DNA from: a virus
IMG/VR virus record: IMGVR_UViG_3300029989_000111
Coordinates: 1-31,955 of that record
Reading direction: 5' to 3' (one strand)
Length of the DNA stretch: 31,955 bases
Position numbers and translations under genes: made by a program. The notes beneath the pieces are model-generated. The model saw nothing but the letters and a program-made list of their open reading frames with translations. It was not told the DNA's origin and did not search any database. Below are positions 1 to 29,652 of the stretch, piece by piece (position 1 is the first letter of the stretch; each line of letters opens with the position of its first letter).

Positions 1-1855
1 TACGGCCAGATGTTGATCCAGTTCTAGCTATCGAAGTTGCAGTCGATAGCGCCAATGTACTTGCAATAGATCCACCAATAACTAAAGTACCATTTTTAAG
101 CCCGGTTAGGAATTTTGTAGATACTCTGCCTACAGTGTTAGGAATTTTTATGTCAATATATCCTGTACCTCCACCAGTGATCGTTGAAATGTCAATGTAT
201 TCTTTTGAAACTATAGCAGCAGAGTTTACATAAACATCTTTTGCAACGATACTCAGCAAATTATCTTGATAAATATGTATATTCTGCTTTGCAGCGGATG
301 CCTGCATTGCAGAGTTTAGAACTACACCAGTAAGTCTGGTATTTGCTCCCGAGACTGAAGCGGAGTATGTAGGGAAATATTGTGAAACCCTATCCGCAAC
401 TGTTATATAGATAGGGCCACTTACTTGCTGGATAAACTCAGTATAAGGAATAACAATATCAATATAGTTTGAACCAGCACCAGATAACGTACATTCTGCT
501 ACAAGTTTGTAGCGTAGGTTTTCTCTAAAATAAGCAGGGTAAATATCCCAAGGATTAATAGAAAGCAAGGCTGATCTAGCGGAAGCTTCTACTCGCCTAC
601 CTTCAGAAGCTGTTGGTTTTGGATTTGTTACCCTTGCTAATCCACGAATTCGAGCTGCGTCAGCTATTCCTGTCGGATGTACAAGGTTAGTCAAGAATGG
701 CAGCCCAGTTACTGCAGGCAAAGTAGTATCACTGTTTCCAAAATATTCTTTCCAAGAATCAATAAGTTTCGTTTTTGAAAACTCATTTTGTACAAGAATA
801 TAAGTAGCACGCAGAGATTGATTCCACTTTTCAACCAATGCTTGATCTATCGACAAATCTGCACCAAAAGTCGGATATGCCGTGTAGCTTGGAAATCCAG
901 GGCCGGGCGCAATAAATGGACGAGCCGTCATGGGATTGGGAATTTCCAGCACGATACTATCGCGTGGATACGTAGTCATGATGCTAGTGATGGCCGTGCG
1001 CAGCAGTGGCGCAAGATAATTAACAATCGCCTGCAGCGAAAGATTTCCTGTTGCGGCGTACAAAATCAGGTCATTGATTCCGTAGCAAATACGCCATAGC
1101 GCACGATCAGCCTTGCCAGCTCGCCATGCCATTGCAGTGGCTAGAGATATTGCACCAGCAGGCTTGTGTCCATAATAATCCCAATTGCTGATTGCAGAAA
1201 CACCAGTTGTTGGTATAATCGGTAGGGTTTGCAAAGCACCATTAACAAAACCTGATAATGTGTACCCACTTCCTCCAAAATTTACAAATCCAACCAGTTT
1301 TTCCCAAGCTTCGCCTAGATTACGCAAAATAGTTATTGCCTCAGACCCTCCGTTATTTCCATTAAATTGCTCAGTCGTTGAATCTCCACAAGCAATGATG
1401 ATCGTGCCTTCAGGCGTGAAATCCCCAAGTCCGCCAAACTTCATAATGTTAATTTTATTAATAGTATCATCCAACATCGCTTCTGCTTCCAGCTTTACTG
1501 CAATTGTTTGATCTTTAACTGTTTCAGTTTCTGCCAGAATTTCAGCTATGGTAGCTGTCACATCGCCATACAGCCGCTTCCAGCGCCGCTCCAGCGCATC
1601 GAGTATGACTGATCCATTTACATCGGCTGGACTACTGATGTCGTTGTCGTCGCGCTTATAAAATAGCACGTTTTCGCTGACGATCATACGCACCATCCGC
1701 GCCGAACCCTGGTATTCCTGGAGCTGGATCAGCGCCGTCATCGGGCGCATACCGTCTAGGTAGTCCTCTACATTAAGCCCATCATGGGACTTCGACTGAA
1801 AAAGATTGAAATCATCCGCATTCGGGACAGTTCCTTGAATAATTGGCAAACCCAT
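1..1855 (-). CDS. Tail fibre / receptor-binding protein with SGNH-hydrolase domain (partial)
   Basis: This frame is open from an ATG at 1855 to the window edge (about 618 codons), so the C-terminus is missing. It lies directly after the gp48-like gene, where Mu carries tail-fibre gene S. Residues 1-110 look like a virion-attachment head. Residues 150-400 carry SGNH/GDSL-esterase blocks: GDST at 157-160 (nucleophile Ser159), a glycine block at 194-197, GIND at 259-262, and NLVHP at 390-394 with the candidate catalytic His393. The usual Asp of the DxxH block is Asn here. The rest, rich in Gly, Ser, Thr and beta-type repeats, resembles a fibre shaft or tip. The likely role is binding and perhaps de-esterifying surface polysaccharide. 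DNA from about 1 to 1500 is much AT-richer than the rest of the phage, which suggests an exchanged module. The fold is a motif-level call. Confidence 0.8.
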   Translation of the reverse strand, partial: MGLPIIQGTVPNADDFNLFQSKSHDGLNVEDYLDGMRPMTALIQLQEYQGSARMVRMIVSENVLFYKRDDNDISSPADVNGSVILDALERRWKRLYGDVTATIAEILAETETVKDQTIAVKLEAEAMLDDTINKINIMKFGGLGDFTPEGTIIIACGDSTTEQFNGNNGGSEAITILRNLGEAWEKLVGFVNFGGSGYTLSGFVNGALQTLPIIPTTGVSAISNWDYYGHKPAGAISLATAMAWRAGKADRALWRICYGINDLILYAATGNLSLQAIVNYLAPLLRTAITSIMTTYPRDSIVLEIPNPMTARPFIAPGPGFPSYTAYPTFGADLSIDQALVEKWNQSLRATYILVQNEFSKTKLIDSWKEYFGNSDTTLPAVTGLPFLTNLVHPTGIADAARIRGLARVTNPKPTASEGRRVEASARSALLSINPWDIYPAYFRENLRYKLVAECTLSGAGSNYIDIVIPYTEFIQQVSGPIYITVADRVSQYFPTYSASVSGANTRLTGVVLNSAMQASAAKQNIHIYQDNLLSIVAKDVYVNSAAIVSKEYIDISTITGGGTGYIDIKIPNTVGRVSTKFLTGLKNGTLVIGGSIASTLALSTATSIARTGSTSGR

Positions 1856-4006: not shown

Positions 4007-4052
4007 GCCCGCCAGTGTCATAAAAGACACCAAAAAGGGCTATTAAAGTGCT

Positions 4053-4583
4053 TTAGACCGGCGTGTCAGTGACCTGTGTCGTGATGCCCGTCTCTGCGTG
4101 CTTGTGCCCGTTGTAGGCAGCACGCAGCGCCTGTAGCGTCCCGCCGCCGCTGTCACAGTTGTCGGTGATGTTGCCCGTCGCATCAATGCCCGACTCGACG
4201 CGCAGCTTCGTCAAGTTCACTAGGTTGACCTGATGCCCCGCCCCGTCAATCACGATACCGTTGCGGGTCAGGTAGATCTTGTGGCCCAGTTCGTCATACA
4301 GGGCTACTTCGCCAGCCTGCAGGCCCGTCAAGCGGTAGCGCCGGTCATCAACATTGATCACCACCGTGTGCCCGGTGCTGCCGCCCACGGCCAGCGCAAT
4401 GCCCTCGGCGCCAGGGTGTGGCACGCTGGTCAGTCCATAGTGCTGGAAATGCTCCACGTCATCGGGCACCTGCTCGGCCAGCAGCGTGACCTGCAGCGCC
4501 TGTAGCTGGGTGCCATCGTTGACCAGGTTGACCACGGCCCGGCTGACCATGCCGCGCACGCGGGCCATCAGGCGCGCCATCAT
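4053..4583 (-). CDS. Mu gp45-like baseplate spike / assembly protein V
   Basis: 176 aa starting at the ATG at 4583, which overlaps the TGA of the upstream P gene as ATGA. The order is an N-terminal helical domain, an OB-like domain (about 25-110), then a C-terminal beta region (YLTRNGIVIDGAGHQVNLVN) ending in HKH at residues 160-162. In gpV and phi92 gp138 spikes an HxH pair at the tip binds iron and forms the membrane-piercing point; the HKH here probably does the same. It forms the trimeric spike under the P hub. Function by family is secure; iron binding is inferred. Confidence 0.88.
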   Translation of the reverse strand: MMARLMARVRGMVSRAVVNLVNDGTQLQALQVTLLAEQVPDDVEHFQHYGLTSVPHPGAEGIALAVGGSTGHTVVINVDDRRYRLTGLQAGEVALYDELGHKIYLTRNGIVIDGAGHQVNLVNLTKLRVESGIDATGNITDNCDSGGGTLQALRAAYNGHKHAETGITTQVTDTPV

Positions 4584-5801: not shown

Positions 5802-7127
5802 TCACCGCAGTATCTCCAGAGGACGAACAGGCATAAAGGCCGGGTTCGGCACGCCGTTGCGCGCTGCCAGCTCGTCGGCGCGCCAGGCATTCTGATAGAT
5901 GCGGTGGGCCAGCACCAGCGCAGGCAGCACGGCTTGCGGCGTGTAACTGGCTCGCTGCAGTAGGAACTCGCTGCGCACCGCCACGTCGCGCACCACCGCC
6001 GCCCGCACATTGGTCAGCGCCCTGGCCACGGCCGCAGGCGGGTCATTGACTTCCAGCTCGATGTCGATCTGTGCGACCAAGGCATCGCGTAGCGCCGTGG
6101 CCTGGGCGCTTGTGGCCACCACATCGGAAGTGGAAAAAGTCACTGTCTGCACCCGCGTCTGCGCCTGGACGCTGCTCGAAAGCACATCGGCGCTGGTCAA
6201 GGCCACGGCCAGCAGCCGTGCCTGATTCGTCAGCGCCAGGCGGCGCTGCAGGTCCGACTGGGCGGCATCGTTGGCTAGGCCGAGCGCCCGAGTCGAACCG
6301 GCGCGGGCCGTTCCCAGCGGGCGCGCATTTGCAGAAAATACAGATTGCAGCTCAGCCAGCGCCGACAGTGGCCGCTCCACTTCCTGCACCAGTTGGGCAT
6401 AGATGCTGCGCAGGCTTTGCACCAGCACCGCTGGTGTGCGGATCAGCGCCGTCAGGCTGCCCGAGAGCAGGCTGGCCTGGCGCACGATGGTAGCAAGGCC
6501 CGCCACGCTGGTCACCCGCGTGGCTAGCTGCAGCAGACCGTTGACCTTGGCCGTCATGCCTTTGAGTGCATCAGTGGCCAGCACGCTCATGCCGTCCACC
6601 GAAAAAACGTCTGAAAACGCCTTTTCAATTTCCGCATCCGCCGCATTGGTCGTGGACTCCACCTTGGCCACCGTGTCTTGCGCCGCCGCCGGAAAGGTGT
6701 TCGACGTGTCTTCGACAAACGTCACCGAGATGCGCGCCATCCCGCCCCGGTCAGGCGTTTCTTTGATGCTCACGTCCCCATCGACGGAGACTTTGCGCAG
6801 CCCGTAGCGTGGGTGATTCAGCTCGCCCGAACCCTTACCCTCGAACGCCGCGATCAGCGCGTCGCGCTCGGTACGGTAGCCGTCACCGATGACGTAAGCC
6901 TCGACGACAAAGCGGCGCGCCCGGCGGCCCAGATCGTCAACGTAGGGCAAGTCGCGCTGCGGGTATTCGTTGACCACGTTGCGTCTGCCAACGCGCATTT
7001 CGGCGTCCACCGTGCGAAAGGGCACGCCACGGAAAGTGCCCGCCACCAGTTTGCGGCCATCGGGCAGCACCAGTTTGCGGCCATCGGGCAGCGTCACCTG
7101 GCCCATTTCATCGCGCCAGGTTGCCAT
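5802..7127 (-). CDS. N: DNA circularisation / tail protein N (Mu gp43)
   Basis: 441 aa, family of the Mu gpN 'DNA circulation' proteins. The N-terminal domain (about residues 25-140, including FRGVPFRTVDAEMRVGRR and EYPQRDLPYVDDLGRRARRF) is the conserved part; the middle and C-terminus are mostly helical. In Mu, N is a tail/baseplate protein once linked to circularising injected DNA. Its ATG at 7127 shares one base with the tape-measure TGA (TGATG). Residues 13-28 contain LPDGRKLV twice in a row, from an exact 24-bp tandem duplication, so the N-terminus is eight residues longer than a single-copy form. Confidence 0.88.
   Translation of the reverse strand: MATWRDEMGQVTLPDGRKLVLPDGRKLVAGTFRGVPFRTVDAEMRVGRRNVVNEYPQRDLPYVDDLGRRARRFVVEAYVIGDGYRTERDALIAAFEGKGSGELNHPRYGLRKVSVDGDVSIKETPDRGGMARISVTFVEDTSNTFPAAAQDTVAKVESTTNAADAEIEKAFSDVFSVDGMSVLATDALKGMTAKVNGLLQLATRVTSVAGLATIVRQASLLSGSLTALIRTPAVLVQSLRSIYAQLVQEVERPLSALAELQSVFSANARPLGTARAGSTRALGLANDAAQSDLQRRLALTNQARLLAVALTSADVLSSSVQAQTRVQTVTFSTSDVVATSAQATALRDALVAQIDIELEVNDPPAAVARALTNVRAAVVRDVAVRSEFLLQRASYTPQAVLPALVLAHRIYQNAWRADELAARNGVPNPAFMPVRPLEILR
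7045..7092. repeat. Exact 24-bp tandem duplication in N
   Basis: Two identical 24-base units, 7045-7068 and 7069-7092, stand head to tail with no spacer. They encode LPDGRKLV twice in frame at the N-terminus of the N protein. Perfect identity suggests a recent slippage event; copy number could vary between related phages without breaking the frame. Confidence 0.95.
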
Positions 7128-21129: not shown

Positions 21130-21435
21130 TCAGGGCATCGGCTTTTTGACGCCCGGAACGCTGGCGCGCCCGGCGGCCACGTCCGCGCCACGGGTGGTCA
21201 GCGTAGCCAGCGTCACTTCGCCCACGGCGCGGGCCGTCACCAGCGCCTGCTCGGCCAGCCAGGCAATGTCGGTACGCACCTGGTCAATGCTGGCGTTGTG
21301 GCCGTAAATCTGGCCGATGGCGTCGCGCAGCAAAAACACGCTGGCGCTGTAGCCGGGCGTCTGCGCCAGCACCAGCAGCACCGACAGGCGGCGGTCTTCG
21401 GTCAGGTGGGCGAGAAAGTCGGTGGTCATGGTCAT
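21130..21435 (-). CDS. Mu gp26-like winged-helix protein
   Basis: 101 aa with a winged-helix-like pattern (DRRLSVLLVLAQTPGYSASVFLLRDAI, then SIDQVRTDIAWLAEQALVTAR and a beta wing ending TLTTRGADVAAGRA). Related phage proteins are often listed as VpaChn25_0724 type. It lies between gp25- and gp27-like genes as in Mu. The ATG at 21435 overlaps the upstream stop (ATGA); a second ATG lies two codons further. Its role is not known. Confidence 0.78.
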   Translation of the reverse strand: MTMTTDFLAHLTEDRRLSVLLVLAQTPGYSASVFLLRDAIGQIYGHNASIDQVRTDIAWLAEQALVTARAVGEVTLATLTTRGADVAAGRASVPGVKKPMP

Positions 21436-21794
21436 TTGGCCTTCAGCAAAAAATCTTCAATCCGGTTCAGCGACTGGCGGATGGTGTGCCACTCGCGCTG
21501 AGTGGCTTCCTGGTTGGCTTTGATGGCTTTCATGTCGCCCTGCAGCTCGCTGATTTCGTCTTGGCTGGGCATGTATTTCAGGGTTTGCTCAATGCCCACC
21601 ACCTTGGTGTTCAGGTCGGTCATCTTCAGGCTGTAGGCGGCGATGCGCTGGCTCAGCGCCTCCTCGACGGCCTTGATGTGCTGCGCGTTGTCCTTGTCGC
21701 GGGTGGCAAACCAGGTGTATCCAAAAACGGCCACCGTGCCCAGCGCGTTCAGCACCCCGAGCCAGAACCGGCCCGCTTCGTAATCAATATTCAT
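21432..21794 (-). CDS. Mu gp25-like membrane coiled-coil protein (DUF2730)
   Basis: 120 aa: one TM segment near 9-30 (FWLGVLNALGTVAVFGYTWF), then a long coiled coil (about 35-118). This is the DUF2730 layout. In Mu the gp25 gene is in the lysis/terminase neighbourhood. An N-out single-TM protein with a coiled coil could act as an Rz-like spanin or holin helper, but no evidence proves that. It overlaps the holin gene by 4 bases. Confidence 0.78.
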   Translation of the reverse strand: MNIDYEAGRFWLGVLNALGTVAVFGYTWFATRDKDNAQHIKAVEEALSQRIAAYSLKMTDLNTKVVGIEQTLKYMPSQDEISELQGDMKAIKANQEATQREWHTIRQSLNRIEDFLLKAK

Positions 21795-22333
21795 TCGTTG
21801 GCTCCCTCGTTGCGAGCGGCGAGCGTGCCGATCACGTTGTCTTTCTCACGGGAGCCACGGCTCGACCCAAATTCAAACTGGTGTGCATCGCGCAGGCACA
21901 GCCCGAAAATGCTGGCGACAGTGGACAGCAGGCCCACCACCTCGCCCGGAATGTCCTTGCGGAAAAACGTCAGCACGACCAGGCAGGAAACCAGGCCGAT
22001 CACGTCACCCAGCACCATCAGATCAGCCCGCGTGTTGGTGCGCCCAGCCTTGATGAATTCCACGTCGCGTGTGCGGGCTCCCTGCCGGTCAGCCAGGTAG
22101 GCCAGCTCCAGATCCTTGTCAGCGCCCAGCACTGCCAGGTTGAACTGCTGCGCCAGCTCGGCATTAGCCTGAAGCGCCTGCAGCGCTTCTTGCGGCGTTT
22201 TCACACCAGCAACATTTTGGGCGATGGCCACCACCTTTTGAGCGGTATCCAGCGAGCCTTGACCGGCGCCAAAAAACCGCATGATGGACGGCGCGAACTG
22301 GCCCAAAGCGAGGGCGATTGAAATGGGGTCCAT
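21791..22333 (-). CDS. Holin, GTA_holin_3TM family
   Basis: 180 aa. The pattern is a hydrophobic N-terminus (MDPISIALALGQFAPSIMRFFG), a helical soluble part (28-100), two TM segments (about 105-124 and 131-147), and an end with FEFGSSRGSREKDN that is typical of the family. Such holins open the inner membrane so that endolysin reaches the wall. It lies between the endolysin and DUF2730 genes in a lysis cassette. Confidence 0.75.
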   Translation of the reverse strand: MDPISIALALGQFAPSIMRFFGAGQGSLDTAQKVVAIAQNVAGVKTPQEALQALQANAELAQQFNLAVLGADKDLELAYLADRQGARTRDVEFIKAGRTNTRADLMVLGDVIGLVSCLVVLTFFRKDIPGEVVGLLSTVASIFGLCLRDAHQFEFGSSRGSREKDNVIGTLAARNEGANE

Positions 22334-22384: not shown

Positions 22385-22843
22385 TCATACGATGCCCTGG
22401 AGGTAGCGCGTGGGCTGGCAGCTTAAAAACACCGCCGTCAGCACATGGCGCCGCGCCGGTGCGGCCGGGGCGGCCAGGTGGACCCAGCTGCCCTCGAAGA
22501 TGAGCTGGTCAAACGGCAGGGGGGAGTCGGCAATGGCCTGCGCCACCTGGCGCGGCGTGCCGTAGCCGGGGCAAATGAAGTCAGCGGCCAGGCCCTGCAT
22601 GTGGGCCGAGCGCAAAGAGCCGCCCGCCAGGTTGTTGACCGCCGGGCTGCGAAAGCCCGAGCTGATGAAGAGGGGCGCGCTGCCCAGCAGCGTGCGCACC
22701 TGCTCCAGCAGCAGCGCCAGGCGCTTGAGGTTGTCCAGCTGCGCGGGCAGCGGCTCATTGCGCAGGCCAGCGCGGGCGGCGGCCTGTGAGCTGGTGAACT
22801 CGGAGAGCTGGAAGTGCGGGCTGAGCGGGATGTCGGGCGTCAT
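22385..22843 (-). CDS. Endolysin, peptidase M15-type
   Basis: 152 aa of the Peptidase_M15_3 family, also seen as phage D-Ala-D-Ala or L-Ala-D-Glu peptidases. The zinc site is visible: SAHMQGLAADF with His81 and Asp88, and WVHLA with His122. An FISSGFRSPAVN segment (59-70) is the usual substrate-site strand. There is no signal peptide, so it needs the holin. It is the first gene of the leftward late operon as read here. Only a weak ribosome-binding site precedes the ATG. Confidence 0.87.
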   Translation of the reverse strand: MTPDIPLSPHFQLSEFTSSQAAARAGLRNEPLPAQLDNLKRLALLLEQVRTLLGSAPLFISSGFRSPAVNNLAGGSLRSAHMQGLAADFICPGYGTPRQVAQAIADSPLPFDQLIFEGSWVHLAAPAAPARRHVLTAVFLSCQPTRYLQGIV

Positions 22844-22869
22844 GCACGCACTTTGCCGCGTGCGCGCTG

Positions 22870-22910
22870 CCTTGGCTATTAAAACAGTTTAGGGTGAAAC
22901 CTAGGAAACC
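22870..22910 (-). promoter_or_regulatory. Possible late promoter region before the endolysin
   Basis: The 57 bases between the membrane-protein stop and the endolysin start are AT-richer than their surroundings. On the minus strand they hold a TTTAAT (22883-22878) that could be a -10 box and a GGTTTC-CTA-GGTTTC direct repeat (22910-22896) upstream, a possible activator site. No good -35 box is seen, which fits an activator-dependent late promoter of the Mu C type, but the evidence is weak. Confidence 0.3.
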
Positions 22911-23638
22911 GACAGAATGATCACGTCCCTAATCATGGTGCAGGCAATTTCTTTGTCCTGCACTTTTTCCTTGAAGGTAGTGCCTTCTTTTTTCATGGCG
23001 CTAGCGCACAGCTTCATTGTCAAGTCTGGAACGCCTACCTGTAGGGGGTTTTCAAAGGCTGCCATCGTTGTGAGGGTCATTGAAGTTATAGAGTCTATCC
23101 CCTGCGTTGTATCGCCCCTAAGGTCTCTTAAAAGAGTCACGTTTGAAAGCTTTGTCCTGTCTGCTCCGTAGGCGATAAAGACTGAAGTTAGAGCATCCAC
23201 ACTCATCCGAATACTCAGACCTTTTGCCTCTTTCATGACCTTGCCCTCTTTGAGCTGTAGGCGCATTCGCGTATGCAGCTCCTTTGCAAGCTTATTGAAT
23301 CTTTCAGCATAGACCACTGAAGAAATCCCCAGGCCTGCTGTGAACGAGCTGGGTTCTTGAACTAATTCCCGAGTTGGCCGTTCAAGGCCGGCATCTACAG
23401 GAGGCGGCGGTGCCGGGCTATTTGCGCTGGCCTGCTGTGAGGCAGCCATGATGTTCTCGCTCTTGTTGTCGTCGAGCTTTAAACCCACAAAAAAGACCAA
23501 TGCAACACCTCCCGGAACCAGCGCCCAAGCAATGCTGCGCTGATATTTGGACGCCCATCCAGAGCGAGAGCCGCCCACCATCAGCCCTGAAAGCAAGGCT
23601 ACATAAAGCCCAATGACTAGGTAGCCACCTCCAGTCAT
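22901..23638 (-). CDS. Repressor-linked two-TM membrane protein (unrecognised)
   Basis: 245 aa. TM segments lie at about 5-23 and 36-54, with a basic loop between them (R25, K31, R34), so both ends should face the periplasm. A Pro-rich linker (74-80, SPAPPPP) leads to a folded region of about 150 residues. No known family is recognised. The start overlaps the repressor stop as ATGA, so it is probably expressed in the lysogen. The DNA is clearly lower in GC than its neighbours. This suggests an acquired lysogenic-conversion gene, perhaps for superinfection exclusion or another surface effect; the role is inferred only. Confidence 0.7.
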   Translation of the reverse strand: MTGGGYLVIGLYVALLSGLMVGGSRSGWASKYQRSIAWALVPGGVALVFFVGLKLDDNKSENIMAASQQASANSPAPPPPVDAGLERPTRELVQEPSSFTAGLGISSVVYAERFNKLAKELHTRMRLQLKEGKVMKEAKGLSIRMSVDALTSVFIAYGADRTKLSNVTLLRDLRGDTTQGIDSITSMTLTTMAAFENPLQVGVPDLTMKLCASAMKKEGTTFKEKVQDKEIACTMIRDVIILSVS

Positions 23639-24084
23639 GCTGGGTTCCTTTCTGCGGACAGCCTCGAAGCCAGATTCATCACCATTGCCAGATCGTCGTC
23701 ACTGCACCTGTCCAGCATGACTTCCAAATCTTTGTATTTGTTCTTGCGGGTTTTCTGCCGCGCTGGGGTGAGCTTGTAGGCATCCAGCATCTTTTGGCTG
23801 ATTGGCCCATCGCCAGCGGGCTCCAGTTTGCTGACAACTTCCGCCGTGCGGGCCAGCACATCGCGCTCCCACTCTGACACGCGCTCGCCCGTGAGGACGT
23901 AAGTCACGTCCGCGCCGATTGCAGCCAAAGCAGCCAAGTAGGTGGCGTCCGGCGACCTTTCACCTGATTCGTAGTTCCGTTGTGATCTCACAACGATTCC
24001 GCATCGTTCAGCCATCGCCTGCTGGCTAAGACCAAGCGCCTCTCGCGCTTCACGTAAGCGATCAGAAATTTTAGGCACAAACAT
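23635..24084 (-). CDS. XRE-family prophage repressor
   Basis: 149 aa from the ATG at 24084; the longer open frame reads through the promoter and operator and is not used. A helix-turn-helix runs about 16-42 (LGLSQQAMAERCGIVVRSQRNYESGERSP), followed by a helical dimerisation region with no protease-cleavage motif visible. It faces the early operon across about 80 bases with an operator palindrome, so it should repress that operon and probably itself. It differs from Mu c, which has a Mu-type winged helix. An AGGA box lies almost touching the ATG. Confidence 0.83.
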   Translation of the reverse strand: MFVPKISDRLREAREALGLSQQAMAERCGIVVRSQRNYESGERSPDATYLAALAAIGADVTYVLTGERVSEWERDVLARTAEVVSKLEPAGDGPISQKMLDAYKLTPARQKTRKNKYKDLEVMLDRCSDDDLAMVMNLASRLSAERNPA

Positions 24085-24120
24085 TCCTATTCTTGTTGAC
24101 AAGAGGCACAAACGTGCCTC
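24073..24120. promoter_or_regulatory. Operator pair between repressor and early operon
   Basis: O1 is a perfect inverted repeat GAGGCAC-AAAC-GTGCCTC at 24103-24120. A second, weaker site carries the same AGGCACAAAC half (24073-24082 versus 24104-24113), 31 bp away, or three helical turns, so two dimers could bind on one face. O1 lies between -35 and -10 of the rightward promoter; the second covers the repressor start. Confidence 0.75.
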
Positions 24121-24125
24121 ATAAT
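24096..24125 (+). promoter_or_regulatory. Early rightward promoter
   Basis: TTGACA at 24096-24101 (exact -35) and CATAAT at 24120-24125 (one mismatch to the -10) with an 18-base spacer. The operator palindrome fills the spacer. Transcription would start near 24132 and leave a 30-base leader before the first early gene. Confidence 0.78.
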
Positions 24126-24163
24126 TAGACCGGCACACAAACTAAACCTAACCCATCCAAATT

Positions 24164-24409
24164 ATGAAGCCATTCACTTCCGAACAGATCGCCGCCGTAC
24201 GCACTCGTTTTACCGAGCGCGGTGAAACGGTGCAGGACTTCTGCAAAAAGCATGACCTGTCCTATCACGTAGTCATGGACATTTTTCATGGCCGCTCCGC
24301 AGCAAGCCGTGGCGAAGGCCACCGCGCCGCTGTGCTGCTCGGGCTCAAGCGCGAGCCCGCCAGTCCAGCTTTTGATAGCTCAACCCCTGTTTCCCAACCC
24401 AAAGCCTGA
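24164..24409 (+). CDS. BcepMu gp16-type DNA-binding regulator
   Basis: 81 aa. It fits the small phage-associated BcepMu gp16 family: FTSEQIAAVRTRFTERGETVQDFCKKHDLSYHVVMDIFHGRSAASRGEGHRAAVLLGL, with a HTH-like centre near 21-45. It is the first gene of the early operon, where Mu has ner, so it probably acts as a Ner/Cro-like regulator of the switch. There is no clear ribosome-binding site in its CA-rich leader. Confidence 0.8.
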   Translation: MKPFTSEQIAAVRTRFTERGETVQDFCKKHDLSYHVVMDIFHGRSAASRGEGHRAAVLLGLKREPASPAFDSSTPVSQPKA

Positions 24410-24421
24410 AAGAGTTATTTC

Positions 24422-25120
24422 ATGTCATCGCCCAAACCAATCCAACTCACCTTTGGTGATGTCCAGTTCCATGTTCTTCAACGTGACGGCGAGCCGTGGC
24501 TCAGGGCAGGGCAAATTGCCCAAGCCTTGGGGTATTCAGATCAGCGCGATTTGCTCAAGCTCTACCGGCGTCGAGCAGACGAATTTACCGACAAGATGAC
24601 TGCGGTGGCTACCTTGCCCGACCTGCGGGGGGGATTAGTCCCCTCAGGTCAAATGAGAGAGGTTCGCATCTTCAGCTTGCGTGGTGCTCACTTGCTGGCA
24701 ATGCACAGCAACACCACATGGGCCAAGGTCTTTCGCATTTGGGCACTCGACGTTCTGGACGGAAAGGCTGCACCGGCAGTCAAAGCCGTAGCCCAGCCCG
24801 ACCTGTTCGCCCAGCCCGCCCCTGATCTGACAGCCAAGTTTGCCGAGCTTGAAGTCAAGCTGGCTCACTCGCAGACGCAAACCCAGGAACTCAAAGACCG
24901 CCTGTTGGCTTCTCTGTCCTCAGAGCTGCAAGCTTTTAAAGATTTGCACCTGGCCAAGCCCAAGCGCACCAGCAAACGGCGCGAGCCCATCACCGCCGCT
25001 GAAATGGAGGCGATGCGCAAGCTGCACGCCGATGGCATGTCGAACACGGCCATTGCCAAGAAGCTGGGCCGCAGCACTGCCTCGGTGAGCTGGGCGGTGC
25101 GCGCCAAGGTGGCCGCATGA
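24422..25120 (+). CDS. BRO-N domain protein fused to a C-terminal HTH
   Basis: 232 aa. Residues 8-112 form a BRO-N domain (QFHVLQRDGEPWLRAGQIAQALGY, LYRRRADEFT, then LRGAHLLAMHSNTTWAKVFRIWALDVLDG), as in phage antirepressors. A linker and coiled coil (135-175) lead to a HTH at 190-228 (TAAEMEAMRKLHADGMSNTAIAKKLGRSTASVSWAV), like that of resolvases. The make-up suggests a regulator that binds DNA at both ends or an antirepressor with its own targeting domain. A G7 run in a strong hairpin lies at 24621-24649. Confidence 0.8.
   Translation: MSSPKPIQLTFGDVQFHVLQRDGEPWLRAGQIAQALGYSDQRDLLKLYRRRADEFTDKMTAVATLPDLRGGLVPSGQMREVRIFSLRGAHLLAMHSNTTWAKVFRIWALDVLDGKAAPAVKAVAQPDLFAQPAPDLTAKFAELEVKLAHSQTQTQELKDRLLASLSSELQAFKDLHLAKPKRTSKRREPITAAEMEAMRKLHADGMSNTAIAKKLGRSTASVSWAVRAKVAA
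24621..24649 (+). repeat. Inverted repeat with G7 run in the BRO gene
   Basis: ACCTG at 24621-24625 pairs with CAGGT at 24645-24649, and a GGGG stretch of the G7 run (24627-24633) pairs with CCCC (24639-24642) around the TTAG-centred loop. A run of seven G can slip, and the hairpin may affect translation. Confidence 0.7.
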
Positions 25121-25802: not shown

Positions 25803-26010
25803 GTGTCATGGCGTCTATGAAACCCTCCTTTTCAGCCGCCGAGGTCCACACCCGTTTATTGGCGTCGTTGCTCAGCGCCTGGTACATGTCCCAGGGCTGG
25901 ATGAGCTTTTGCCGGATTAGCTGCTCGGTCAGTGCTTTCCACAGCCACAACTGCATGGCGTGGGCGATTTCCGGGTCAAAGGCTTGCGGGCTGGGGGTCT
26001 CGGGTTTCAT
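25729..26010 (-). CDS. Probable antisense gene in the early operon (unrecognised)
   Basis: 93 aa from an ATG at 26010 with AAGAAAG upstream. The larger open frame to 26625 on this strand is mostly a shadow, but this end is different: GC-rich third codon positions, many aromatic and charged residues (LWLWKALTEQLIRQKLIQPWDMYQALSNDA, then KEGFIDAMTLIQQMAWATD), and it fills a 300-base stretch with no plus-strand gene. It converges with the preceding gene, overlapping by 74 bases. No known family is recognised. Confidence 0.58.
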   Translation of the reverse strand: MKPETPSPQAFDPEIAHAMQLWLWKALTEQLIRQKLIQPWDMYQALSNDANKRVWTSAAEKEGFIDAMTLIQQMAWATDPRPYPEQPQAPFPG

Positions 26011-26106
26011 GGGCGCTTTCTTGTTGGGGAGGGCGGCGCAAGTTTGCGCAGTCCTCTCCAGTCTATCCCGCAGGCGCAGCGCCTGCTTTTCACAAGGATC
26101 AGTCGT

Positions 26107-26604
26107 ATGAGCTGGCTTTCTGCTCCCGCACTCGCAGGCCTGCCGGGCCTGCCAAAGACTTCTCATGGCGTCATCTTGCGCAGCAAGTCGGCAGGCTGGG
26201 CCAAACGGCCCCGCTCCGGCCCTGGCCGCAGCGGCTTTGAATACCTCAGCACCGACCTGCCCCCAGAAACCCAGCAGGCGCTGGCCGCGCAAGCCGCCGG
26301 GGCTATCAAGCCCGCCGTCGATGCCTTGGCCGCTGGCCAGCGCGCCAAAGAGGTCGCCCAGGTGACGCTCCATCCCCTCAAAGCCACGCTCACCCGCTGT
26401 CGCCACGGCCAGGCGCTGGTGGTGCTTGAAAGTGAGCCGTTCAACGGCCTCGAAATGCGCCCCGGCCAGTTGCGCGCTCTGGCGCAGCAGCTCACGGCCA
26501 TTGCCGACATGGCCGACAGCCTGCCCACTCATGGCAAGCACTGGCGCGCCACGCCGGTGAGCGTGGATGCAAATGGGCTTGTCCAGAAAGGCAATGCGGC
26601 ATGA
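26107..26604 (+). CDS. Stand-alone Mu-type HTH protein, paralogue of the transposase N-terminus
   Basis: 165 aa from an ATG with AAGGA eight bases before it. Residues 1-86 match the first 87 residues of the transposase in the next gene (SWLSA..GLPGLP.., then EYLSTDLP.ETQ.ALAAQAAGAIKPAVDALAAGQRAKEVAQV). This is a Mu-type winged-helix, the kind found in MuA and Mu c. Residues 87-165 have another origin (LHPLKATLTRCRHGQALVVLESEPFNGLEMRPGQLRALAQQLT). It could bind transposase sites and act as a regulator; this is inferred. Its stop overlaps the transposase start (ATGA). Confidence 0.78.
   Translation: MSWLSAPALAGLPGLPKTSHGVILRSKSAGWAKRPRSGPGRSGFEYLSTDLPPETQQALAAQAAGAIKPAVDALAAGQRAKEVAQVTLHPLKATLTRCRHGQALVVLESEPFNGLEMRPGQLRALAQQLTAIADMADSLPTHGKHWRATPVSVDANGLVQKGNAA
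26239..26363 (+). repeat. Direct repeat copy 1 (with 26736-26860)
   Basis: 125 bases of this HTH gene match 26736-26860 in the transposase gene with about ten differences; 47 bases (26305-26351 and 26802-26848) are identical. The copies lie 497 bp apart in the same orientation. This indicates recent duplication or gene conversion. Confidence 0.9.
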
Positions 26605-28805
26605 GCTGGCTATCTGCGTCATCACTCATCGGACTTCCAGGACTGCCCGGAACACACCAGGGTGTACTGGCCCGCGCCAAGCTCGCAAACTGGACGGCAC
26701 GCCCACGAACCGAGGGCGTAGGCCGCAAGGGACTTGAATACCTGAGCACCGACTTACCACTGGAAACCCAGCGGGCGCTGGCCGCGCAAGCCGCCGGTGC
26801 GATCAAGCCCGCCGTCGATGCCTTGGCCGCTGGCCAGCGCGCCAAAGAAGTCGCCCAGGTACATGCCTGCGCCACGTCGATGGCCAAGTACGGCATCAAC
26901 CTGGAGGCCGCTGGCGGCTTTGACCCGGCCCGCAATCCCAAGCTGGACCTGTTCCAGCGCTTTGAGGCCTACCACGCCGTGCGCGGCGCCGCCGTCTGGC
27001 CCACCATCCTGGAGTTTGTCCAGGTCTGGGCTGCTGGCCATATCGAGTCGCACCCGGCCACGCGGGCCGCTTATCCCACCATCCCGGCCAAGACGCTGGA
27101 CAAGTGGTATCGCGCCTGGCGCACCCAGGGCGTCGAGGCGCTGCTGGAGCGCAAGCCGCGCAAAGACAAAGGCCAGACCGGCCTCAAGCGCGACGACGAA
27201 CTTTATGACGTGTTTTTGGCCGCGCTGGCCGAGATGCATGACCCCACCGCCCGCCAGGTCGAGCGCGTCATCCGCGACCAGCTCGGCAAAGACCGCACGC
27301 CGCCGGTCAGCACCCTCAAACGCTGGATTCGGGAGTTCAAGGCCAGCAACGCCCCGGCGCTGCTGATGTTCAAGAATCCAGATGGCTACAAGAACAAATA
27401 CCGCTCGGCTTTCGGCTCACAGATGGACGGCATCACGCGCCCGAACCAGCAGTGGCAGCAAGACAGCACGATTGGCGACGCCATGCAGCGCGCCGATCTG
27501 GCCTTTGACCTGGTTGACCTTGACACCGGCGAGATCCGGCGCCACGCCATCATTGCCAGCATCGACGTGTTCACGCGCCGCGCCAAAGTCGTGGTGGCGC
27601 CGACCAGCAGCAGCAACGCGGTCAAGGCCGTGACCCGGCTGTGCATGCTGGCCTGGGGCAAGCCCGAGCAGATCAAGACCGACAACGGCAAGGACTACAC
27701 CGCGCAGGACTTCAACTTTGCGCTCAAAAGCCTGGGCATTGAGCACCCGCTTTGCACGCCGTTCAGCCCAGAGCAAAAGCCCTATGTCGAGCGCTTCATC
27801 GGCACGCTGATGCACGACCTGTTCCCGATGCTGGAGGGTTTTGTCGGCAAGAGCGTGGCTGAGCGCAAAGCCATCGAGTCGGCCAAGAGCTTTGCCCAGC
27901 GCTTCGGACTGGGCGCGATTGACCTGCGCATGGGAGCGCGCCAGTTGCAAGACGTGATCAACGGCTGGCTTGACGAGTACCACAGCCGCACCCATTCAGA
28001 GCTGGGCTGCAGCCCGGACGAGATGGCCGAACTACACACCACGCACATCGTGCGGATCGACGAGCGGGCGCTGGACATTTTCCTCATGCGGGTTGCGGGC
28101 AAAGAAACCCGTGTTGTGACTAAAAAAGGCATTGCCATGCCCGGCAGCAATGGCTTTGCTGCGCCGGAGCTGGCCGCGCACATCGGTAGCACAGTGCGCT
28201 GCAGGCAGGACGAGCTGGACTTGGGCGCAATGTATGTGTTTGCGATGGACGGCAGCTTTATCTGCAAAGCGCTGGACCACTCGATGCTGGGCATCAACCG
28301 GGGCGAGCTGGCCGCCAAGGCCCATGCCATCGAAACCGCAACGATCAAACCGATGGTGGACCAGTTGCGCAAGTCCATGAAAAAGCGCCTGACCCAGCAG
28401 GCGGTGCAGTCGCTCTACAACGACAAGGAGCGCGCCGCCGAGGCCAGCGCCAGCAATGTCCACCGGCTCGCGCCGCGTGTAGTGGCGCACACCACGCCCG
28501 CCATCGACTCGGTGCTGGCCAGCTTTGACACCTCGGTGCAAGACGCCGCCCGCGCCAACGCCCGCGCCCTGTTCGACGAGCAGGACGCTCGGCCCGCACC
28601 GGCTCCCGTGATTTCGATGACCAGCGTCAACCCGATTGGCCGCTACAGCGCCTGGGTGCGGCTGCAGGCGCGCAAGGAGCGCGGCGAGGTCATCAGCAAG
28701 CGTGACCTGGACTGGTTCGCCAGCTACCAGGGCAGCAAAGAGTTTTGCAGCTGGCATGAGCTGCACGAAGGTTCTGACCCGCTGGCTGAAGAGGCCACTG
28801 GGTAA
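26601..28805 (+). CDS. A: DDE transposase A (MuA-type)
   Basis: 734 aa, near MuA length (663 aa) but longer. An N-terminal Mu-type winged helix (1-87), then end-binding HTH domains (about 100-250), the catalytic RNase H-like core with Asp288 (QQDST), Asp361 (KTDNGKDY) and Glu397 (PYVERFIG), and a C-terminal region that should contact ATPase B. The second Asp and Glu are 35 residues apart, against 55 in MuA. It catalyses end cleavage and strand transfer in replicative transposition. Its start overlaps the paralogue gene's stop. Confidence 0.95.
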   Translation: MSWLSASSLIGLPGLPGTHQGVLARAKLANWTARPRTEGVGRKGLEYLSTDLPLETQRALAAQAAGAIKPAVDALAAGQRAKEVAQVHACATSMAKYGINLEAAGGFDPARNPKLDLFQRFEAYHAVRGAAVWPTILEFVQVWAAGHIESHPATRAAYPTIPAKTLDKWYRAWRTQGVEALLERKPRKDKGQTGLKRDDELYDVFLAALAEMHDPTARQVERVIRDQLGKDRTPPVSTLKRWIREFKASNAPALLMFKNPDGYKNKYRSAFGSQMDGITRPNQQWQQDSTIGDAMQRADLAFDLVDLDTGEIRRHAIIASIDVFTRRAKVVVAPTSSSNAVKAVTRLCMLAWGKPEQIKTDNGKDYTAQDFNFALKSLGIEHPLCTPFSPEQKPYVERFIGTLMHDLFPMLEGFVGKSVAERKAIESAKSFAQRFGLGAIDLRMGARQLQDVINGWLDEYHSRTHSELGCSPDEMAELHTTHIVRIDERALDIFLMRVAGKETRVVTKKGIAMPGSNGFAAPELAAHIGSTVRCRQDELDLGAMYVFAMDGSFICKALDHSMLGINRGELAAKAHAIETATIKPMVDQLRKSMKKRLTQQAVQSLYNDKERAAEASASNVHRLAPRVVAHTTPAIDSVLASFDTSVQDAARANARALFDEQDARPAPAPVISMTSVNPIGRYSAWVRLQARKERGEVISKRDLDWFASYQGSKEFCSWHELHEGSDPLAEEATG
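26736..26860 (+). repeat. Direct repeat copy 2 (with 26239-26363)
   Basis: The transposase copy of the 125-base repeat. It encodes residues about 46-87 of the transposase, the end of the Mu-type HTH domain and a linker. Confidence 0.9.
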
Positions 28806-28896: not shown

Positions 28897-29652
28897 ATGA
28901 CAAAGCCATCCGATAACCAAACCGACCTTTTCCAAGGCAACCAGGTCGCCAAGCTGACCAACGTGGCGTTTGCCATTGAAGCGATCAACCAAATCACCGA
29001 TGTGGACGACATCGGCGCGCCGCACATGGCTGTGCTTTTCGGCCCGCCGGGCTACGGCAAGACGCAGGCGGCCATGTACCTGGCGCACCCACAGGGCCGC
29101 AACGCCGTGTTTGTCGCCATCCGCATGTTCGACACAACCAAGACGCTGGCACAACTTTTGTGCTTGGAGCTGGGCATTGCCACCAAGCCCCAGTGGCCGG
29201 TGGCCACGCTGTACGACCACATCGTGCGCCGCCTGCAGCAGCTCGACCGCCCGCTGGTGATCGACGAGGTCGATTACATCGCCGAAAAAAGCACCATCGA
29301 CTTCATTCGCACCATCCACGACAACACGACGATTCCCATCGTGCTGATCGGCGAGCAGGACTTGAAGCGCAAGCTGATGTCGCGCCACGAGCGTTTTCAC
29401 GACCGCGTGCTGGTCTGGAAAGAGGCCCAGCCCTGCGACGCCCACGACGTTAAAAAGCTGGCCGCGCATCACGCGGGTGACTTGAGCTTTACGCAAGACG
29501 TGATTGATGCGCTGGTTGTCAAGACGTCTGGTGTGGCACGCCGCGTTTACAACGAGCTGAAGGCGCTGCGCGAAGAGTGCAAGCGCGCTGGCACCAGCGC
29601 ACCCACCTTGGCCATGCTCGGCAACCTTCGCGTTGCCAAGGGGGCACGATGA
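28897..29652 (+). CDS. B: DNA transposition ATPase B (MuB / AAA)
   Basis: 251 aa, shorter than MuB (312 aa), without the N-terminal HTH. Walker A is GPPGYGKT at 49-56 and Walker B is VIDEVD at 121-126; a sensor-type segment IPIVLIGEQDL follows near 146-156. It belongs to the AAA group shared with TniB and BcepMu TnpB. It probably binds target DNA and activates A. The start follows the 91-base gap holding a hairpin; the stop overlaps the next gene (ATGA). Confidence 0.92.
   Translation: MTKPSDNQTDLFQGNQVAKLTNVAFAIEAINQITDVDDIGAPHMAVLFGPPGYGKTQAAMYLAHPQGRNAVFVAIRMFDTTKTLAQLLCLELGIATKPQWPVATLYDHIVRRLQQLDRPLVIDEVDYIAEKSTIDFIRTIHDNTTIPIVLIGEQDLKRKLMSRHERFHDRVLVWKEAQPCDAHDVKKLAAHHAGDLSFTQDVIDALVVKTSGVARRVYNELKALREECKRAGTSAPTLAMLGNLRVAKGAR

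Follow-up and report, generated by a model that had tools for sequence, protein, structure and literature searches.

A predicted two-TM membrane protein encoded beside the repressor of a Mu-like phage: a candidate superinfection-exclusion cargo

Genes next to a phage repressor can protect the lysogen that carries them. In both lambda and the P. putida prophage P1, defense genes (rexAB and RexABpp, respectively) follow directly on the repressor (PMC12894663); from a different gene position, P22 encodes SieA, an inner-membrane prophage protein that blocks DNA injection (PMC10883804). Here we describe P0001, a 245-residue protein encoded directly after the repressor in a viral sequence of 31,955 nucleotides (IMG/VR record IMGVR_UViG_3300029989_000111, positions 1 to 31,955; herein the window), and compare the position that its gene occupies, between repressor and endolysin, with the same slot in related phages.

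The slot gene and its distant relative

The window comes from a Mu-like phage whose hosts are Polaromonas-type bacteria and whose genes are arranged in the manner of BcepMu/KS10 (Table 1). Early genes (ner-like, Bro-N antirepressor-like, transposase and MuB-like ATPase) run rightward; the repressor, the slot gene encoding P0001 and the late genes run leftward. A dyad read from the sequence lies inside the early promoter-like site and is likely its operator. The ORF ahead of the transposase gene has near-identical stretches (FEYLSTDLPPETQQALAAQAAGAIKPAVDALAAGQRAKEVAQV) in common with the transposase start; by eye, the Mu-type DNA-binding part looks to have been duplicated locally. The tail-fibre-like ORF at the contig end contains a GDS-like stretch (IIIACGDSTTEQ) that, again by eye, resembles SGNH esterases.

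Table 1. Coordinates of features in the window (no locus given) and in related loci
Feature	Position	Strand	Basis or remark
Tail-fibre-like ORF, low GC	2-1855	-	open at contig end
Palindromic late-promoter-like element, further copy	4044-4055		TAAASNGNTTTA
DUF2730 protein	21432-21794	-	Pfam PF10805, 1.4e-6
Membrane protein after endolysin	21791-22333	-	phrog_1544 (function unknown)
M15-type endolysin, first lysis-operon gene	22385-22843	-	PF08291, 1.8e-17; phrog_894, 1.1e-33
Stem-loop abutting endolysin start codon	22844-22869	-	
Late-promoter-like element before endolysin	22862-22891	-	conserved in seven phages
Slot gene P0001, 245 aa, predicted two-TM inner-membrane protein, large periplasmic domain	22901-23638	-	
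Predicted periplasmic part, residues 58-245 (~185 residues)	22904-23467	-	
Predicted TM2, about residues 35-55	23474-23536	-	hydropathy
Basic loop between TMs, residues 23-34	23537-23572	-	GSRSGWASKYQR; predicted cytoplasmic
Predicted TM1, about residues 3-23	23570-23632	-	hydropathy
HTH repressor	23635-24138	-	stop 23635-23637; probable start, internal ATG at 24084
Early promoter-like site TTGACA-18-CATAAT	24096-24125	+	11/12 matches
Dyad GAGGCAC-AAAC-GTGCCTC	24103-24120	strandless	inside early promoter
ner-like gene	24164-24409	rightward	
Bro-N antirepressor-like gene	24422-25120	rightward	
ORF ahead of transposase	25960-26604		
Transposase	26601-28805	rightward	
MuB-like ATPase	28897-29652	rightward	
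P0002 locus (L101)	repressor 1053-1439; P0002 1498-1962; endolysin from 2021		
P0002, second listing (L107)	6001-6465		
Motif-TM-PGL-KYA fusions	L029 3028-4005; L044 2826-3875; L047 2675-3661		
Repressor-neighbour motif pairs	L009 3153-3916; L010 3242-3984; L023 1978-3326; L029 2606-4005; L044; L069; L075; L080; L095; L096; L126 2752-3810		L126, KS10 gp13/gp12
Slot protein with 2TM region	L085 4569-5114; L010 4679-5191; L086 3565-4098; L075 5082-5639		

P0001 is read on the minus strand; the plus strand of the same interval is full of stops. Its ATG (23636-23638) overlaps the repressor stop as ATGA, with an AAAGGA ribosome site 7 nt 5' of the start codon, and the endolysin gene starts 57 bp downstream; the coordinates thus confirm both the overlap and the location before the lysis genes reported in the first-pass annotation. 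That annotation had also described a GC content unlike that of the neighbors. P0001 has a GC of 0.511 and a GC3 of 0.54 (endolysin, 0.70 and 0.90; terL, 0.65 and 0.84; repressor, 0.56 and 0.63), and GC3 is 0.73 to 0.90 in the late genes and 0.61 to 0.68 in the repressor, ner and antirepressor; the contrast is sharp against the late genes and only mild against the repressor module.

Hydropathy and loop charges bear out, as a prediction, the two TM segments and the large periplasmic domain attributed to P0001 earlier. The N terminus (MTGGG) is uncharged and the loop between the TMs (GGSRSGWASKYQRS) carries R25, K31 and R34; an N-out/C-out topology is therefore predicted, placing residues ~58 through 245 in the periplasm. 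This part consists of a Pro-rich linker followed by a basic orphan domain with Cys211 and Cys234. Structure prediction, proposed as a check in the first-pass annotation, did yield an AlphaFold2 model from the single sequence, but with a mean pLDDT of 43 only its helix hints are usable and the fold is not.

P0001 had been called unrecognized, and it has indeed no match in Pfam, PHROG, NCBIfam, PADLOC or the PDB and no relative among 50,697 phage records searched with tblastn. A second viral contig (L001) encodes an identical P0001 with the neighbors kept too. Searching genomes that hold related prophages gave one distant relative, P0002 of Polaromonas sp. 39-63-25 (residues 2 through 70, 38% identity, E 3.5e-9). 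No relative appeared in a genome-contig scan, among Comamonadaceae (400 genomes beyond G003) or among Burkholderiales (399 genomes; a scan without a positive control); the family and the order, some 800 genomes in all, held no further clear relative. Weak genome matches to the hairpin profile (L111 through L124, E 1e-4 to 0.01) were judged to be chance, those inspected (L111 through L114) being unrelated membrane proteins or non-coding frames; a plasmid match (H1, E 0.7) was likewise attributed to chance.

P0002 (154 aa) sits in the slot of P0001, between repressor and endolysin, in a different Mu-like prophage. Because a protein-level relative occupies the same slot in another prophage, P0001 is, judged from its sequence, a real ORF beyond chance. 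The two proteins are alike in the membrane hairpin, where 13 of 23 residues are identical in the loop and TM2 start versus 4 of 18 in TM1; the basic loop is the part best conserved. The C-terminal part of P0002, in contrast, is unlike that of P0001: it is a shorter periplasmic domain of a two-Cys type that also occurs in the L024 slot protein (phmmer E 7.7e-9), and hence the hairpin is kept while the periplasmic domain differs. A GC lower than that of the late genes and a very narrow distribution would suit recently acquired or decaying cargo with no present function. We give this explanation very little credence, as P0001 is intact in two contigs from different samples, has a good ribosome site together with translational coupling, and retains a hairpin that is conserved at the protein level in a distant phage.

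Boundary with the lysis operon

Between the slot gene and the endolysin lies a late-promoter-like element, STAAASNGNTTTANNAG followed by a CGCGCGC run, that is present in seven phages (the window, L006, L008, L009, L010, L011 and L085). Its longer pattern occurs once in the window and never in shuffles; in L010, L011 and L085 the element is found twice, the other copy lying deeper in the late region. From its position, the element would mark the start of a late lysis transcript, comparable in this respect to Plys of Mu. No terminator-like site was found after P0001 in the window, so read-through into the lysis genes is possible. The palindromic form of the element recurs in the window (Table 1) and is possibly a late activator binding site. 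A stem-loop abuts the endolysin start codon, and stem-loops of differing sequence are found there in L006, L008, L010, L011, L018, L023, L024, L085 and L101 (about -13 to -24 kcal/mol per 42 nt; weak in L009; few controls); their presence in nearly all these phages suggests translational control of lysis.

Beyond the endolysin, the membrane protein is a holin candidate by position, and the DUF2730 protein is of the same family as the Mu releasin gp25 (PMC9239132). No Rz-like spanin was recognized in the lysis region of the window with Pfam or PHROG, which, together with the location of a two-TM protein directly ahead of the endolysin, would fit a lysis function (holin, antiholin or spanin) for P0001. 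An i-spanin, however, has one TM, and a class II holin has no large periplasmic domain; P0001, with two TMs and a large predicted periplasmic part in its 245 residues, is unlike either. Its gene precedes the endolysin and lies upstream of the separate late-promoter-like element. A match to a late lysis protein such as a spanin had been named beforehand as the result that would count against a lysogenic role; none was found for P0001, and no PHROG lysis family matched it. The phage that carries P0002 has its own holin-like and Rz-like (i-spanin-like) genes after the endolysin (sequences read by eye), so a hairpin protein would be needless as a spanin there. Taken together, a lysis role is highly improbable.

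The repressor-endolysin slot in related phages

A comparison of the same slot in related prophages, as the first-pass annotation had advised, reveals other, unrelated exported proteins. Among twelve related loci in which both borders (repressor and endolysin) are present, nine have, under a fixed rule, a slot ORF whose N-terminal part includes a hydrophobic segment; of 108 late ORFs, 11 do so (Fisher p 2.7e-6, which is only a guide because rule and borders were chosen after viewing the loci). In L023 and L024 a slot ORF likewise has a hydrophobic segment, placed further in or after a later start. The cargo varies, as expected of moron-like genes at a fixed slot, and includes a YGYEQGIS lipoprotein (L006, L007 and L011), the PGL-KYA family, two-Cys proteins (a descriptive group, in which a common domain is established for P0002 and L024 only) and others. 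Since other exported proteins stand in the same spot of related phages, the slot probably houses genes whose proteins are produced during dormancy of the phage.

The commonest slot cargo is the exported PGL-KYA family (alignment A3; part of phrog_10002), which extends from Comamonadaceae to Enterobacterales and to the Klebsiella phage KP12. Its predicted core is good, with 95 residues at a pLDDT of 90 or more, and no solved or viral structure stood out when compared with the model (best Z 3.7; Foldseek E 0.33 for the PDB and 0.027 for viral structures). The family resembles P0001 in being exported and in its slot but consists of another domain; profile comparison gave no relation of it to P0001, whose C-terminal domain showed none to either of the two cargo families compared. 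In KS10 (NC_011216) the gene order is repressor gp13, gp12, gp11, holin gp10 and endolysin gp09. KS10 gp11 is a predicted lipoprotein (PMC2628397) with no tie by sequence to the two-Cys proteins; gp12 and gp11 occupy the same slot as P0001 but have no sequence relation to it. Four relatives (Table 1) also encode a slot protein that contains a 2TM region. It has a weak likeness to the PADLOC model of "2TM" effectors (L085, E 3.9e-5) and is preceded by proline-rich ORFs in L085, L086 and L075.

A short motif is common to the repressor tail and the N-terminal 80 residues of the following ORF in 10 of 17 relatives; in each, the repressor's own neighbor ranks first or second of 17, and the scores of these pairs are far above those of shuffles. 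KS10, where gp12 bears the motif of the gp13 repressor tail (score 41, reached by 1 of 1,000 shuffles), brings the total to 11 of 18. Some copies have an IQIG/VQIG core as in RHIM and others read FHG...G.VAGG(N/D); by eye, the motif looks like the RHIM and bacterial amyloid signaling motifs, which pair receptors with effectors and include the RHIM-related BASS3 (PMC12261475). L029, L044 and L047 encode single polypeptides in which the repressor-tail motif is followed by a cytosolic domain, a TM and a periplasmic PGL-KYA domain, the last of which is a separate exported protein in other phages.

These arrangements raise the possibility that P0001 is a membrane sensor that signals events at the envelope to the repressor, using its conserved cytoplasmic hairpin loop to tune induction. 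The greater conservation of the loop and TM2 start than of TM1 would fit, as would the motif held in common by the relatives' repressors and next proteins and the passage of the next protein through a TM into a periplasmic domain in L029, L044 and L047. The window repressor and P0001, however, have no such motif in common (score 25, reached by 44 of 1,000 shuffles), so the pattern bears on P0001 only by analogy, and we regard a sensor as unlikely. In a broader form of the idea, the repressor-operon slot of BcepMu-like phages would be a trans-envelope signaling device, its periplasmic domain informing the repressor of an event at the envelope, such as the arrival of a phage. The signal would travel via the RHIM/BASS-like motif of repressor tail and neighbor in many relatives, and via the conserved cytoplasmic hairpin loop in this phage and its Polaromonas sibling. 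We hold this general scheme to be decidedly unlikely; the motif pairs nevertheless make an envelope-to-repressor link testable.

Proposed role and comparison with known systems

We tentatively favor, with a probability of roughly 0.45, the reading that P0001 is an inner-membrane protein that belongs to the cargo of the repressor operon, is expressed in lysogeny and acts on the periplasmic side, with superinfection exclusion as its likeliest role. The evidence comprises the ATGA overlap with its ribosome site, the relative at the equivalent position, the swapped domain, the variable exported cargo and the late-promoter-like element. We infer expression in the lysogen from two features, the repressor coupling and the late-promoter-like element that follows the gene: translation coupled to that of the repressor would lead to synthesis in the prophage state. 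The hairpin would sit in the inner membrane with both ends outside, displaying the ~185-residue part in the periplasm, where it could bind the injection component of an incoming phage, or a host factor used by it, and so block entry. The hairpin may serve as a common platform on which the periplasmic domain is swapped between phages, changing the target.

By position and topology, P0001 could just as well serve another lysogeny function. One is lysogenic conversion, in which the protein would modify or support the envelope of the host (stress, surface or secretion) and exclude no phages; the same evidence applies, and variable slot cargo in relatives is what host-benefit genes would show. Against this, P0001 has no similarity to known envelope, stress or secretion proteins, and frequent replacement of cargo suits a phage arms race at least equally; we consider conversion somewhat unlikely. 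Superinfection exclusion is our preferred reading, although P0001 has no family match to known exclusion proteins in Pfam, PHROG, NCBIfam or PADLOC, a single distant relative and no terminator-like site behind its gene, all of which count against it. Unrelated exported proteins interchange beside the repressor across a widespread group of phages (from Comamonadaceae to Enterobacterales, including the cultivated KS10 and KP12), and here one membrane platform bears exchangeable periplasmic domains; such slots are a good hunting ground for new superinfection-exclusion mechanisms.

Among described systems, lambda RexAB and RexABpp resemble the locus in having genes downstream of the repressor and a membrane component, and P0001 is encoded on the same strand just downstream of its repressor. 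A RexB-type protein, in contrast, has four TMs and a cytoplasmic partner, RexA, whereas P0001 has two hydrophobic segments and a large predicted periplasmic part, and its gene stands without a partner, alone between repressor and endolysin; with two TMs and no RexA gene, P0001 is therefore not a RexB member. Lysogeny-expressed defense is a feature of the Rex systems, and for P0001 we infer it. P22 SieA differs in gene position, and the searches with P0001, against Pfam, PHROGs and phage records, showed no sequence relation; like P0001, however, SieA is prophage-encoded and predicted or known to reside in the inner membrane, respectively, and its block of injection is the role that we propose for P0001.
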